From NCBI GenBank assembly GCA_030638825.1, contig DAOWDU010000012.1:1-32416 (forward strand): a stretch of 32,416 nucleotides of DNA. The letters are read 5' to 3'. Positions 3,116 through 19,579 of this stretch are shown here, one piece after another. The notes under the pieces are model-generated. The model was not told the DNA's origin and did not search any database. It saw only the letters and a list, made by a program, of their open reading frames with translations. Position 1 is the stretch's first letter. Each line of letters starts with the position of its first letter. This DNA is from a bacterium (GTDB lineage: Bacteria > Patescibacteriota > Minisyncoccia > JAHIHE01 > JAGLIN01). The translations under genes were made by a program, and so were the position numbers.

Positions 3116-3215
3116 AGAAGAGAGTAAAAAGCCAAATATTGGCAAAATAATGTTTCCCCCCTTTATTTTATTTTTGGTTCTCATTTATAAGCTTTACAAT
3201 TCTAAAACTAATCTT

Positions 3216-3641
3216 ATGTCACATACATGTAAAAATCTTCTAATCCGCTGTATGGATTTTCGGTTGAATAAGGAAGTGAGAAAATGGATTGCCGAGTCGG
3301 ATTTATTTGAAGGCGGGCTTGATATTATTTCTTTGGCTGGCGCAAGTAAAGATTTGATTGATGGAAGTAAAGAAGTAAAAAATAATTTTTTGAAACATAT
3401 TGGCGTTTCTGTTGATTTGCATCAAGTGAAAAAAATTATTATTTTTAATCACAGCGACTGCGGCGCTTACGCGCAGGATTATCAATTTAGTTCGCCAGAA
3501 GAAGAAAAAGAAAAACAGCTGGAAGATATGAAAAAAGCGAAAGAGATAATTCTGGAAAAATATCCGGAAGTGGAGGTGGTTTTTATTTGGGGGGAGTTGA
3601 AGGATGAGGAAGGGGAGGAGATTGAGTTTGAAATTTTATAA
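3216..3641 (+). CDS. Minimal beta-carbonic-anhydrase-like protein
   Basis: The 141 residues carry the zinc-site layout of beta-class carbonic anhydrases: C12-M-D14-F-R16 near the N-terminus and H79-S-D-C82 later, with an AGA turn at 41-43 between them. Cys, His and Cys would bind zinc, and the Asp-Arg pair is the usual gate. Beta-class enzymes are normally about 200 residues, so this is a very short version lacking much of the C-terminal helical part. Hydration of CO2 is therefore uncertain. The frame extends up to 3150, but the extra residues there are hydrophobic and absent from the fold, so I chose the ATG at 3216, directly before the first conserved strand. The gene ends 2 nt before an inverted repeat. 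Confidence 0.7.
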   Translation: MSHTCKNLLIRCMDFRLNKEVRKWIAESDLFEGGLDIISLAGASKDLIDGSKEVKNNFLKHIGVSVDLHQVKKIIIFNHSDCGAYAQDYQFSSPEEEKEKQLEDMKKAKEIILEKYPEVEVVFIWGELKDEEGEEIEFEIL

Positions 3642-3643
3642 AT

Positions 3644-3686
3644 GGCACACTGATAAATACAGACTTTCAGCACAGATAAACACTGA
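3644..3686. repeat. Left arm of inverted repeat flanking the GxxExxY gene
   Basis: This 43-nt arm matches the reverse complement of 4130-4172 at 38 of 43 positions. It includes GCACACTGATAAA and CAGCACAGATAAACACTGA. It starts right after the stop codon of the carbonic-anhydrase-like gene and ends about 10 nt before the GxxExxY start. Confidence 0.85.
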
Positions 3687-3696
3687 TAAAAAATGT

Positions 3697-4077
3697 ATGA
3701 ACTATCAACATAATGATTTAACTAAAAAGATTATTGGATGTTTTTATAATGTTTATAATTCTTTGGGTTACGGATTTTTAGAAAAAGTTTATGAAAATTC
3801 TTTTGCTCTTGAATTAAAACAAAACGGATTATTTACAGTCCAGCAAATGCCAATCAAAGTTTCATATAAAGAACAGCCAGTCGGAGATTATTTTGCTGAT
3901 TTGGTAGTTGCAAATAAAATAATACTTGAATTAAAAGCTCAAGAAGTTTTGGCTCCAGAAAATGAGGCTCAATTGTTAAATTATTTAAAAGCAACAGAAT
4001 ATGAAGTGGGGTTACTTTTAAATTTTGGCAAAAAACCAGAGATCAAAAGAAAGATTTTTTCAAACGATCTAAAATAA
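3697..4077 (+). CDS. GxxExxY protein (PD-(D/E)XK-like)
   Basis: The 126 residues match the small GxxExxY family (PDDEXK_3 type). The name motif is G26-F-L-E29-K-V-Y32. A nuclease-like core follows: D68 in YFADLVV, then E78-L-K80 after strand IILELK, as in PD-(D/E)XK folds. Family members are common and often multicopy in Patescibacteria and other environmental bacteria, but their role is not established. The ATG at 3697 gives the usual family length; upstream codons to 3604 are in frame but overlap the previous gene and the left repeat. The gene sits between the arms of a long inverted repeat, so it may travel as one unit. Nuclease activity is inferred from the fold only. Confidence 0.85.
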   Translation: MNYQHNDLTKKIIGCFYNVYNSLGYGFLEKVYENSFALELKQNGLFTVQQMPIKVSYKEQPVGDYFADLVVANKIILELKAQEVLAPENEAQLLNYLKATEYEVGLLLNFGKKPEIKRKIFSNDLK

Positions 4078-4114
4078 TTCGACACAGAAGAACACAGACT
4101 AAAGCACTGAAAAA

Positions 4115-4145
4115 CACAGATAAAAATAATCAGTGTTTATCTGTG
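4115..4145 (+). repeat. Hairpin at the inner side of the right GxxExxY repeat arm
   Basis: A perfect 10-bp stem, CACAGATAAA (4115-4124) with TTTATCTGTG (4136-4145), closes an 11-nt loop. Its right half overlaps the long repeat arm. There is no following T-run, so it is not a typical terminator. Confidence 0.7.
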
Positions 4146-4172
4146 CTGGAAGTCAGCGTTTATCAGTGTGCT
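4130..4172. repeat. Right arm of inverted repeat flanking the GxxExxY gene
   Basis: Reverse complement of 3644-3686 with 5 mismatches in 43. The stretch before it (4078-4114) carries related words such as ACACAG and CACTGAAAAACACAG, so the right side holds extra degenerate copies. The arm ends 11 nt before the pgk start codon and so also forms the pgk leader. Confidence 0.85.
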
Positions 4173-4183
4173 ATTAAAATAAT

Positions 4184-5374
4184 ATGAAATCTCTCAAATC
4201 TATCAAAAACCTAAAAAACAAAAAAGTTCTTGTGAGGGTTGATTTTAATGTGCCAGTTGGGGATGATGGGATTGTGGATGACAAAGAAGACTGGCGAATG
4301 AAAGCGGCGTTGCCGACGATAGAATATTTGTTGGAAAAAAAAGCGAAGGTTATTTTGATGACTCACTTAGGAAGGCCAGAGGCAAGTCAAAAATTCATAA
4401 AGTCAAAAATTCATAAAGTCAAGAATCAAAAATATAGTTTAAGACCTGTAGCAGAGCGGCTTGAAGAACTTCTAAATCGTAAAATAAAATTTGTTAATGA
4501 TTGTGTCGGCGATAAAGTTAAAAAAGTAGCTAATGAAATTAAGACAGGTGAAATAGTAATGCTGGAAAATTTAAGATTTTATAAAGAAGAAAAAGAAAAT
4601 AATAAAGAATTCGCCAAAGAATTGGCTGGGCTTGCTGATGTCTATATAAATAACGCTTTTTCAGTTTCTCATCGCAAACACGCTTCCGTTGTCGCGGTTA
4701 CAAAATTTTTGCCGTCTTACGCCGGATTACTTTTAGAAAAAGAAGTGAAAATATTATCAAAGGCGATAAATAATCCGGAAAAGCCAGTAATTATTATAAT
4801 AGGCGGAGCAAAAATAAAAACAAAGATTCCTGTAATAAAATATTTATCAAACAAATTTGATAATATCTTAGCAGGCGGAGTGGTCGCGAATGTTATCTTA
4901 AAAGCAAAAGGAGTTGATATTAAAAATTCTTTGCTGGACGATATCAATATAAACGAAGTTAAAAAAATTAGTTTTAAAGATAATAAGCTTCACATTCCTG
5001 TTGACGCAGTTGTTTGCAATAGTAAAAATAAAGTAGTTTTATCGGCTATTGGAAAAATTAAAAATAACAAAATTTTAGACATTGGTCCGGAAACCGCAAA
5101 ATTATATTCAAAAATAATTTCTGATTCTAAAACTATAATTTGGAATGGTCCGATGGGATTGTTTGAAAAAGAGGAATTTTCTTCGGGAACAAAGGCAGTC
5201 GCAAAAGCAGTCGTAAAATCTGAAGGATATGTTATAATCGGAGGAGGAGACACAATTGCCGCGGTAGATAAATTCGGAGATTTGAAGAAAATAAATTATA
5301 TTTGCACTGGTGGGGGAGCGATGTTGGAATTTTTGGCGGGAAAAGAATTGCCGGGATTAGAAGCGTTGAAATAA
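4184..5374 (+). CDS. pgk: Phosphoglycerate kinase
   Basis: Cytoplasmic glycolytic enzyme transferring phosphate from 1,3-bisphosphoglycerate to ADP. The 396 residues have the full set of family motifs: RVDFNVP (18-24) and HLGRP (61-65) for substrate, ENLRFYKEE, GGAKIKTKIPVI, WNGPMGLFE, GGGDTIAAV for nucleotide, and the end CTGGGAMLEFLAGKELPGLE. Residues about 68-83 are an unusual Lys-rich stretch encoded by a 16-bp tandem repeat and sit just after HLGRP, in a region that often varies in length. The leader contains the right arm of the GxxExxY inverted repeat, so any promoter must lie in or beyond that element. No Shine-Dalgarno is visible. Length is normal and the gene looks functional. Confidence 0.97.
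   Translation: MKSLKSIKNLKNKKVLVRVDFNVPVGDDGIVDDKEDWRMKAALPTIEYLLEKKAKVILMTHLGRPEASQKFIKSKIHKVKNQKYSLRPVAERLEELLNRKIKFVNDCVGDKVKKVANEIKTGEIVMLENLRFYKEEKENNKEFAKELAGLADVYINNAFSVSHRKHASVVAVTKFLPSYAGLLLEKEVKILSKAINNPEKPVIIIIGGAKIKTKIPVIKYLSNKFDNILAGGVVANVILKAKGVDIKNSLLDDININEVKKISFKDNKLHIPVDAVVCNSKNKVVLSAIGKIKNNKILDIGPETAKLYSKIISDSKTIIWNGPMGLFEKEEFSSGTKAVAKAVVKSEGYVIIGGGDTIAAVDKFGDLKKINYICTGGGAMLEFLAGKELPGLEALK
4384..4428 (+). repeat. 16-bp tandem repeat inside pgk
   Basis: The unit AAGTCAAAAATTCATA occurs at 4384-4399 and 4400-4415 and partly again from 4416. Because 16 is not a multiple of three, the copies are read in different frames and give different residues. The whole block keeps the gene open. 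Confidence 0.85.
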
Positions 5375-8580: not shown

Positions 8581-10410
8581 ATGCAACTAACCCACCAATA
8601 CAAAAATACAAAAATACAAAAAGAAATTAGCGGGAATGCTGATCTTCTTTTGGGGAATGATTTGGGGAATTATTTTTATTTGACTAATGGAAAAGAGACA
8701 AAATATCAGGGATTTTTTTACGCGGATGGAAAAAAAGATAAAAATAAATTGGCGGTTTATAAAATAATTGATCAGATTAAGATTTTAGGCGATTCTAAAA
8801 TAACAGAAATTAAAAACAGTTTTTTTGAAATTGAGAGAAAATCTGAAAATAATCTTAGCGAGAAATATTTTATGCCAGACGGTTATAACTCGCTTTGCTT
8901 AAAAACAAATAAAAAAACGAAAGCGGAAATTGTTTTAGATGTGCGTTATCCTTATGATTCAAGGCAGATGGGCAGAGTTTATAACATTAAAATAGAAAGA
9001 GAACACACCCTAATAAAATTTACAAAACGACGCAATTTAGCTGAGGATGGATTAGATGATAAAAAAGAATTTATTTTGTATCTGGCGATAAAGACTGATA
9101 GATATGATTACAAAAAAATAGGAGAGTTTTTTTCCAAGCATTATCAAAAAGATGAAGATAGAAATTCATATCCTTGCGACAGATTTGTTTTTAAGGCGCT
9201 GGAAATGGAATTTAAAAACGCCGTTTTTTCGGTAGCCAATAGTCCCCAAAAAGCATTAACAGAAGCTAAATATGTTTTTGATAATTTTAAGGAATTGCGC
9301 GAGAAAGCAAAAAAGGATACTTATCAGAAAATAAAACCTCTGAATATTAGCGATGAAGAGATAGGAATGGCTTACTTGTGCGCTGAAAATTCTATTAATA
9401 CTTTATTGGTTAAGAATAATAATAAAAAAGGAGCTTACGCCGGACTGCCGTGGTTCTTTCAGTTTTGGCACAGAGATGAGGCGATATCTCTTTTGCAAAT
9501 TTATAAGTTAGACAAAAATTTAGCTCAGGAAATCATTTTAGCGCAATTGAAAACAGTTTCAGAAAACGGCCAGATTCCCAGGCAAAGATTTTTTGATGCG
9601 GAACAAATGAAACTACAAAGCGCCGACGCGCTTAGCTGGTTAACGGAAAGAATGTTTAAAATCTCTCACAGGTATAAATTACCAGACGATTTTAAAATAG
9701 ATATTATCAAAGGGCTTGAAAAGACGGTTTCTAACTTAATTCAAAGAAAGACCATCAATGAGTTGGCAGGTAGTGAAAAAAGCGAGACTTGGATGGATTC
9801 TTTAAATAGAGATGGAGCGAGAATTGAAATTCAAGCGGGACGATTGAGAATGTATAACTTTTTATATAAATTAACTAAAAACGATCAGTATCAGATTTTA
9901 GAAAAAGAATTAAAAGCCAAAGTCAGAGAGAAATTTTATCAAGGCGGAATTTTATTTGATGGTCCGAACGACAAAACAATAAGACCGAATATTTTTTTGG
10001 CGGCATATCTATATTCCGAACTCTTAAATAAAGAAGAATGGGAGCTATGTTTTGACAAAATACTGCCAAAGCTTTATCTTGAATGGGGAGGGCTTTCGTC
10101 GGTAGATACGACAAGCAGTGAATTTATTTCCAAAGATACTGGAGAAAATAACGCCAGCTATCATAATGGAAACAGCTGGTATTGGATAAATAATTTAGCG
10201 GCGCTTGTTCTATATAAATCAAATCCGCACAAATATTCAGAATATATAAACTCTATCATGGAAGCCAGCACAAATGAAATTTTATATAATGGAATAGCGG
10301 GACATCACAGTGAAGTAAGCTCTGCGAAAAAACAAACCTCCGCCGGATGCGGAGCGCAGCTTTGGAGTGGGGCAATGTATTTGGAGGTTTTGGATGAGAT
10401 GATACAATAG
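8581..10410 (+). CDS. Glycogen debranching enzyme (amylo-alpha-1,6-glucosidase type)
   Basis: Predicted to hydrolyse alpha-1,6 branch glucose in glycogen-like polymers. The 609 residues follow the bacterial/archaeal layout: an N-terminal beta-rich domain (about 15-200) and an (alpha/alpha)6 catalytic barrel (about 255-605). The barrel holds AGLPWFFQFWHRDE (287-300), ETWMDS (402-407), IEIQA (415-419), a YHNGNSWYWI segment and GCGAQLWSGAMYLEVL near the end, all family hallmarks. The N-terminal residues YKNTKIQK are encoded by three copies of an 8-bp ATACAAAA repeat (8598-8621), so the extreme start may be an unstable extension. No signal peptide is seen, so it should be cytoplasmic. With pgk and the oxidoreductase subunit nearby it fits sugar-polymer fermentation. 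Confidence 0.9.
   Translation: MQLTHQYKNTKIQKEISGNADLLLGNDLGNYFYLTNGKETKYQGFFYADGKKDKNKLAVYKIIDQIKILGDSKITEIKNSFFEIERKSENNLSEKYFMPDGYNSLCLKTNKKTKAEIVLDVRYPYDSRQMGRVYNIKIEREHTLIKFTKRRNLAEDGLDDKKEFILYLAIKTDRYDYKKIGEFFSKHYQKDEDRNSYPCDRFVFKALEMEFKNAVFSVANSPQKALTEAKYVFDNFKELREKAKKDTYQKIKPLNISDEEIGMAYLCAENSINTLLVKNNNKKGAYAGLPWFFQFWHRDEAISLLQIYKLDKNLAQEIILAQLKTVSENGQIPRQRFFDAEQMKLQSADALSWLTERMFKISHRYKLPDDFKIDIIKGLEKTVSNLIQRKTINELAGSEKSETWMDSLNRDGARIEIQAGRLRMYNFLYKLTKNDQYQILEKELKAKVREKFYQGGILFDGPNDKTIRPNIFLAAYLYSELLNKEEWELCFDKILPKLYLEWGGLSSVDTTSSEFISKDTGENNASYHNGNSWYWINNLAALVLYKSNPHKYSEYINSIMEASTNEILYNGIAGHHSEVSSAKKQTSAGCGAQLWSGAMYLEVLDEMIQ
8598..8621 (+). repeat. Three copies of 8-bp tandem repeat at the start of the debranching enzyme gene
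   Basis: ATACAAAA is repeated three times without change, inside codons 6-14. A gain or loss of one unit would shift the frame, so this is a potential slippage site. Confidence 0.8.
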
Positions 10411-10527
10411 TAATTTGTTGTAACTCGTTGTAACTTATGGAAATTGAGAAAAGTTATACAATTACAATAAATTACTACAAATTACAATTTATTACCATCA
10501 ATTACTAAATTACTAAATCTAATTATC

Positions 10528-19497: not shown

Positions 19498-19579
19498 AAG
19501 CATATAAGCATGTAAACATTTAAACAAAATTTTGAAATCTCAACATGTTTATATGCTTAAATACTTACATGTTTATATG
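19498..19579. repeat. Inverted and direct repeats between the two tRNA genes
   Basis: AAGCATATAAGCATGT (19498-19513) is the near-perfect inverse of ACATGTTTATATGCTT (19543-19558), 14 of 16 positions. ACATGTTTATATG is repeated directly at 19567-19579. The spacer could fold into a hairpin and may mark processing of a two-tRNA transcript. Confidence 0.65.

Follow-up and report, generated by a model that had tools for sequence, protein, structure and literature searches.

The GxxExxY locus

The window, i.e. the whole stretch of 32,416 nucleotides analysed here, corresponds to contig C54 in a genome (G000) of the Patescibacteria/CPR type, 1.15 Mb in size, and it carries, between the gene for a putative carbonic anhydrase (CA) and the phosphoglycerate kinase gene pgk, a short gene of the GxxExxY family enclosed by inverted arms. 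The layout is, in order, a (+) arm, the GxxExxY gene, a second (+) arm and a (−) arm, the individual features being as follows:

3150–3641, (+) strand: putative carbonic anhydrase (Pro_CA_2), the left neighbour, its stop codon adjoining the left arm
3627–3690, (+) strand: left arm with the words CACTGAT, TACAGAC, CACAGAT and CACTGAT, pairing with 4129–4189 at 84%; outer end TGGCACAC, inner end CACTGAT
3697–4077, (+) strand: GxxExxY gene, 126 aa from the ATG at 3697, PD-(D/E)XK nuclease family
4079–4124, (+) strand: second (+) arm, CACAGAAGAACACAGACTAAAGCACTGAAAAACACAGATAAA, directly 3′ of the GxxExxY stop codon
4129–4189, (−) strand: right arm, the inverted partner of the left arm, making with 4079–4124 a hairpin of the gene-less type
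4184–5374, (+) strand: phosphoglycerate kinase gene pgk, the right neighbour, which comes directly after the CA gene where the site is empty in the sister genus

The paired segments 3627–3687 and 4129–4189 are 61 nt long, 84% complementary and separated by 441 nt; the arms of 43 nt with 38 matches given in a preliminary description of this DNA are real and contained in them. As had also been claimed there, the arms touch both neighbours, the left one starting at the stop of the carbonic-anhydrase-like gene (which ends at 3641) and the right one stopping just before pgk (4184), whilst the additional words and the hairpin noticed on the right-hand side proved to be a full (+)(−) pair at about 4079–4178, folding at −29.8 kcal/mol (z = −4.6), stable as RNA and with similar folding on both strands. 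The GxxExxY frame is open from an ATG at 3604 and runs through the left arm. The local-alignment score of the arm pair is 36, compared with a mean of 9.1 (SD 1.1, maximum 15) in 1,000 dinucleotide shuffles, the runner-up inverted pair across the whole 32-kb window scoring 16. Short inverted repeats are plentiful in this AT-rich genome (149 pairs in the window), but with a score so far above the shuffle maximum, and about 150 loci tested, chance or composition is ruled out as the source of the arms. Two more gene-less inverted word arrays, both intergenic, are present in the window at 10406–10518 and 19498–19558, the types seen being GTTGTAACTC/AATTACAA and AAGCATATAAGCATG.

The GxxExxY protein

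The ORF ending at 4077 was assigned to the GxxExxY family by profile search, both with PF13366 (E = 5.8e-41; 140 bits, cut-off 22) and with TIGR04256 (E = 1.3e-39; 135 bits, cut-off 35). The residues E29, D68, E78, K80, Q92 and Y96 are invariant across 51 sequences and make up an intact PD-(D/E)XK site with the QxxxY motif of the RecB/Cas4 type. Having both the catalytic D...ExK and the QxxxY motif, the protein is a predicted RecB/Cas4-like PD-(D/E)XK nuclease; its AF2 model (pLDDT 92.7) matched Cas4 SSO0001, LHK-Exo and Hjc in Foldseek, and a PDB sequence search gave no useful match. The dN/dS ratio of 0.11 between two species of the genus indicates that the gene is under purifying selection.

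No match for GxxExxY was found in PHROGs, and the hits to PDC-S02 in PADLOC were weak (E = 6e-4). A single Bacteroidota protein used as the query matched 0 of 50,697 phage records and 5 of 72,556 plasmids, so that a phage or plasmid origin was rejected. In the literature searched, mostly outside subscription journals, GxxExxY is mentioned by two papers only, in passing, and there is no earlier report of GxxExxY units; to our knowledge, no biochemistry has been described for any GxxExxY protein.

Inverted arms at other GxxExxY loci

For each GxxExxY gene, the 300-bp upstream flank was aligned to the reverse complement of the downstream flank. The sample covered the GxxExxY genes of CPR genomes (72 tested), among which the family is patchy and multi-copy (60 of 380 genomes positive, with up to 11 copies each), as well as 80 loci in named genomes from outside the CPR (77 tested). 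The CPR flanks scored 18.6 on average, compared with 9.5 for cross-paired flanks and 9.2 for offsets at the same locus, with 43 of the 72 loci above the pooled 99% threshold; for the other phyla the mean was 18.4, compared with 9.3 for offsets and 9.5 for other ORFs, and 54 of the 77 loci exceeded the 99% threshold. The Mann–Whitney comparison with other ORFs gave p = 6.5e-19 (CPR) and 3.5e-30 (other phyla), the control scores being themselves inflated, as GxxExxY paralogues and S23 genes were among the control ORFs: high-scoring controls were few, many of them belonging to these two groups, with one GIY-YIG gene and one Y1/RAYT-type transposase in addition. The last of these, a genuine Y1/RAYT-type ORF caught together with its repeats in L131, serves as a positive control of the scan. 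Direct repeats showed no excess in the flanks of the 72 CPR loci.

GxxExxY genes are thus generally flanked by inverted arms, the controls lying at about 9–10, and the check proposed in the preliminary description, on members of the family with their 300-bp flanks, came out in its favour. The GIY-YIG genes, a small multicopy nuclease family from the same phylum, had a mean of 11.1, with four of 29 loci above the threshold and no tetrads, by which the idea of arms as a general property of small CPR nucleases was rejected.

Arm words and gene-less copies

Each arm consists of about four short words at a spacing of 8–10 nt, the word being, depending on the locus, ACGAA, ACTAA, CAC[AT]GA, CGCGGAT, GCTGAT or NNGATT. 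Autocorrelation of the arms peaks at 8–10 and 16–18 nt, and at least three copies of one 4-mer occur in 65 of 91 arms versus 23% of shuffles; in the Bacteroidota, the outer end of the arm is TTGTCTGAAC. The word is common to both arms of a locus, yet varies from locus to locus, even inside one genome, and it goes with the clade of the GxxExxY protein, not with the host. For the 58 CPR loci—nearly all non-CPR pairs being above the 60% identity cap—the Mantel correlation between arm word and protein clade was r = 0.44 (0 of 2,000 permutations). Two CPR loci, L014 and L016, combine a Bacteroidota-like protein with Bacteroidota-type, TGTCTGAACC-like arms, and therefore arms and gene travel together. 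Between L158 from a cyanobacterium and L153 from a member of the Chitinophagales, the 79% identity covers the gene together with about 25 nt, and the alignment shows no homology further out.

Gene-less arms and hairpins with the word of the unit are scattered through the same genomes. In the window's own genome, 44 occurrences of the CAC[AT]GA word pair are spread over 15 places (reversed-pattern control, 0), 14 of these places being gene-less and only the window place having the gene. The pair was also found in G002, G003, G008 and G009, and is absent from nine other members of the family; arrays without a GxxExxY gene of the cognate word are present in G009, with 14 word hits, and in G008, with 4. 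The gene-less copies are solo arms, (+)(−) hairpins or (−)(+) pairs, and one such hairpin, located before gltX, is confined among the 14 family genomes to G000 (0 of 13 relatives). In 16 Bacteroidota genomes, which contain 43 PF13366 matches, there are 78 hits of the arm pattern versus 0 in the control, many of them being hairpins of about 90–110 bp; Mucilaginibacter G400 has 39 arm hits, 3 GxxExxY genes and MITE-like hairpins of about 90–110 bp. Repeats occurring as often elsewhere without the gene had been named in the preliminary description as evidence against its proposal; they do occur, literally, at 14 of the 15 places, but their pattern is MITE- or REP-like and the excess beside the gene is very strong.

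Several further observations concern these repeats. At the site of the G000 hairpin upstream of gltX, G002 (L315) carries an unrelated GC-rich repeat, TGTCATTCCCGCGGAGGCGGGAATCC, which suggests an intergenic hot spot there. A different palindromic repeat, GTCATTGCGAGGAACGAAGCAATCGCG, is nested within a GATT-type hairpin in L284 (G400:C8). A short ORF (127-aa frame) at G000:C24:5191–5508 (L257) resembles parts of the C-terminal half of PGK, this partial second pgk copy having a gene-less CAC[AT]GA hairpin about 2 kb away.

Occupied and empty sites

The comparison with genomes having nothing between the carbonic-anhydrase-like gene and pgk, proposed in the preliminary description, did reveal an empty site, namely in the sister genus (G001), where the CA gene and pgk are directly adjacent; in G002, of the same genus as G000, the site is filled by a unit with diverged arms, and G012 retains a degenerate lone arm only. 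Among the 14 members of one family, lepA contains a GxxExxY unit in 3 genomes, placed in frame after RMEW or the corresponding residues and before YVLNLIDTPGH, the filled form thus reading RMEW-[unit]-YVLNLIDTPGH; the empty form of the other 11 is RMEW-KG-YILNLIDTPGH or a close variant. In two of the three lepA inserts the right arm is eroded. In recG, a 486-nt in-frame unit occupies one site in three genomes from two families, and a lone four-word arm lies in frame at another recG position in L026. The recG inserts have diverged about as much as their hosts, and therefore an old inheritance is probable and recent homing into recG is not supported. In both lepA and recG the host frame is kept and the inserts have no stops. 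The unit is therefore present or absent as a block, even inside essential genes, the presence/absence polymorphism at conserved sites comprising CA–pgk, lepA (3 of 14) and the gltX hairpin (1 of 14).

Other in-frame partners of GxxExxY are RuvC, RuvX, RecQ, a formyltransferase (PurN-like), prepilins and two exported-type proteins, Pfam confirming LepA, RecG, RuvC, RuvX, RecQ, the formyltransferase and the prepilin. The reading frames of the arms are not biased to the phase of the gene (in-phase open 0.48 versus 0.55 and 0.53 in CPR), so that selection for an arm readable in the frame of the gene is unsupported; the in-frame cases are therefore probably best seen as survivors of selection acting on the host gene. 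It may be added that GxxExxY (L060, L077, L250) and S23 (L190, L238) ORFs repeatedly lie just before the N-terminus of prepilin genes of the GFTLxE type or are fused to it, which suggests leader peptides as permissive landing sites. Partners acting in branch migration or on Holliday junctions—RecG, RuvC, RuvX and RecQ—also recur (L024, L033, L026, L249, L251, L298), the cases being few. A weak degenerate GxxExxY-like stretch without ExK, at G000:C56:28441–28599 (L009), lies within a 533-aa frame and is possibly an old in-frame insert.

S23 genes with similar arms

Genes of the S23 family (PF05635), found in 86 of 145 CPR genomes, have similar surroundings: their flanks in CPR scored 17.1 on average versus 9.3, with 17 of 29 above the 99% threshold and arms of four words. 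The inverted four-word arrays were seen at the S23 four-helix-bundle genes L178–L207 and at that of the window's own genome, G000:C27:17320–17607 (L238), the latter with CATTTTAA repeats. In L007 (G000:C39, 1300–1475), inverted arrays of the ATGTTAAA type, the word of the own-genome S23 element, flank a tRNA-Ser gene, and a CAC[AT]GA arm comes after them. GxxExxY and S23 genes occur within about 1.3 kb of each other in L243, L244, L245 and L246 (G092:C20, G106:C3, G066:C10 and G139:C3), which suggests that the two have common landing spots.

In the 23S rRNA intervening sequence (IVS) of Coxiella, tandem GACAGAT heptamers stand just upstream of the S23p ORF and the IVS is excised by RNase III; inverted repeats have been discussed for IVSs as well (PMC4990558). 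The heptamers tie a known rRNA IVS to the anatomy of the tetrad arms. Since the S23 proteins have like arms and are not nucleases, either two types of ORF exploit one kind of end, or neither mobilises it.

Mobility and a proposed mechanism

Based on the above results, the GxxExxY gene and its two inverted word-array arms are probably one discrete element of a REP/RAYT- or MITE-like kind that is mobile or was so until recently; the mobility of the unit is well supported, and the family seems to be a class of mobile elements that had gone unrecognised. The candidate mobile unit of the preliminary description thus holds in so far as the unit is insertable as one, as seen from the empty CA–pgk site, the lepA units, the same anatomy in most of the about 150 loci and the word following the protein clade. 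As to its suggestion of a homing nuclease, simple homing to a single conserved site is not supported, the sites being diverse and the only shared one, in recG, probably an old inheritance. Among the matches listed, no pair more than 90% identical had unrelated flanks, and the best cross-site cases (L153/L158, L157/L159) reach about 79–80% nucleotide identity confined to gene and arms, between phyla or families; the comparison used one genome per species, by which recent copies could be missed. No target-site duplication is evident by eye at the pgk and hairpin junctions, the empty sites being too diverged to fix the ends.

The GxxExxY protein itself is plausibly the mobiliser, and we infer that the arms are the ends of the element and the binding or cleavage sites of its own predicted PD-(D/E)XK nuclease; S23 proteins, lacking a nuclease fold and situated in like arms, mean that the ORF may not have this role. 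As to binding, cutting, autonomy and the route of insertion, we infer a scheme in which a multimer of the nuclease would recognise the tandem words at roughly one word per helical turn, and in which paired arms or hairpins would, on extrusion, present a branched structure for cutting. The cut or copied unit could then be pasted into permissive sites such as gene junctions, signal or leader peptides and surface loops, the gene-less hairpins being perhaps non-autonomous derivatives moved in trans. A nuclease of the Cas4/RecB/Hjc fold would thereby replace the HUH transposase in a REP/RAYT- or MITE-style working.

The main competing explanation, itself rather unlikely, regards the arms as an independent family of dispersed palindromic repeats moved by host recombination or some transposase, with the GxxExxY and S23 ORFs as passengers lodged between two arms. 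It would account for the gene-less places outnumbering the gene-bearing ones, for the arrays of G009 and G008 without a cognate gene, for the like anatomy around the unrelated S23 four-helix family and for the mixed (+)(−) and (−)(+) arrays, which resemble BIME mosaics; the arm word, however, goes with the GxxExxY clade in hosts of different families and phyla, the GIY-YIG genes are armed at only 4 of 29 loci and without tetrads, and conservation at a dN/dS of 0.11 is not needed in a mere passenger.

It is improbable that the unit acts at the RNA level in the manner of a 23S IVS, its arm stem being cut from transcripts by RNase III, with insertions therefore tolerated, and the ORF helping to spread or process the element. 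The four-word arms of CPR S23 genes, the Coxiella IVS with its heptamers and RNase III excision (PMC4990558) and the RNA stability of the window hairpin speak for such a function, but the lepA and recG inserts are in frame and stop-free, so that simple translation is enough, erosion has affected the right arm of two of the three lepA inserts, both strands fold alike, and Rfam gave no match.

Still less probable, indeed very unlikely, is a host-beneficial or defence nuclease for which the arms would be operator, immunity or self-marking sites: purifying selection, the weak PADLOC matches to PDC-S02 and the long-kept recG fusions fit it, but the family is multi-copy and patchy, has in-frame inserts in unrelated genes and dispersed gene-less arms, and the neighbours at the loci read are diverse.

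Returning to the element moved by its own nuclease, GxxExxY and S23 proteins could, tentatively, be the hallmark ORFs of one unrecognised superclass of minimal mobile elements with inverted tetrad arms. Each GxxExxY nuclease would in that case read its own array and move both itself and the hairpins lacking a gene, also in frame into essential genes, the S23 branch being then represented by the 23S IVS. Since gene and matching arms travel together, an orphan family of several phyla, with up to 11 copies per genome, becomes a testable system, the protein clade predicting the DNA word that should be bound, and a second type of ORF with IVS-like anatomy is brought beside it. The units may further explain where many short palindromic repeats, so far unaccounted for in Patescibacteria and Bacteroidota, come from, and how proteins such as LepA and RecG acquire whole nuclease domains.

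Comparison with known systems

The 23S rRNA IVS and the GxxExxY unit have in common a small ORF, about 120 aa long and enclosed by inverted repeats, with tandem short words adjoining it, whereas the GxxExxY fold is unrelated, the sites are intergenic or within protein genes instead of 23S helices, and a DNA nuclease site is predicted; the window unit, located between protein genes and having a PF13366 ORF, is not such an IVS. Free-standing PD-(D/E)XK homing endonucleases are likewise small PD-(D/E)XK nucleases in an insert missing from relatives, but GxxExxY lies outside any intron or intein, has no fixed allelic site and bears arms on both sides.

Rickettsia palindromic elements (RPEs) are palindromic repeats in frame within unrelated conserved genes (review PMC10969869). 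The lone in-frame four-word segment in recG of L026 is the only RPE-like arm; the GxxExxY unit differs in the full nuclease ORF between its arms—an RPE has no nuclease gene of its own—and in repeat sequence and phylum. Bacterial MITEs resemble the short gene-less hairpins of about 100 bp with the inverted ends TTGTCTGAAC...GTTCAGACAA found beside genes, the difference being that no target-site duplications are evident by eye, at empty sites too diverged to fix the ends. We know of no transposase family with TTGTCTGAAC...GTTCAGACAA ends.

The GxxExxY unit is best read as a REP/RAYT-like element with a predicted PD-(D/E)XK nuclease. As in REP/RAYT systems and REPINs, a chromosomal gene stands between inverted short repeats that match its clade, and gene-less copies, as solo, paired or mosaic palindromes, are far more numerous (15 places and one gene in the window's own genome). 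Unlike a RAYT, the GxxExxY protein is a PF13366 PD-(D/E)XK and not an HUH Y1 transposase (PF01797), a Y1 RAYT-type ORF having been found only in L131; its arms are arrays of about four words in contrast to one imperfect palindrome of 20–40 nt, and its units are inserted in frame within proteins.
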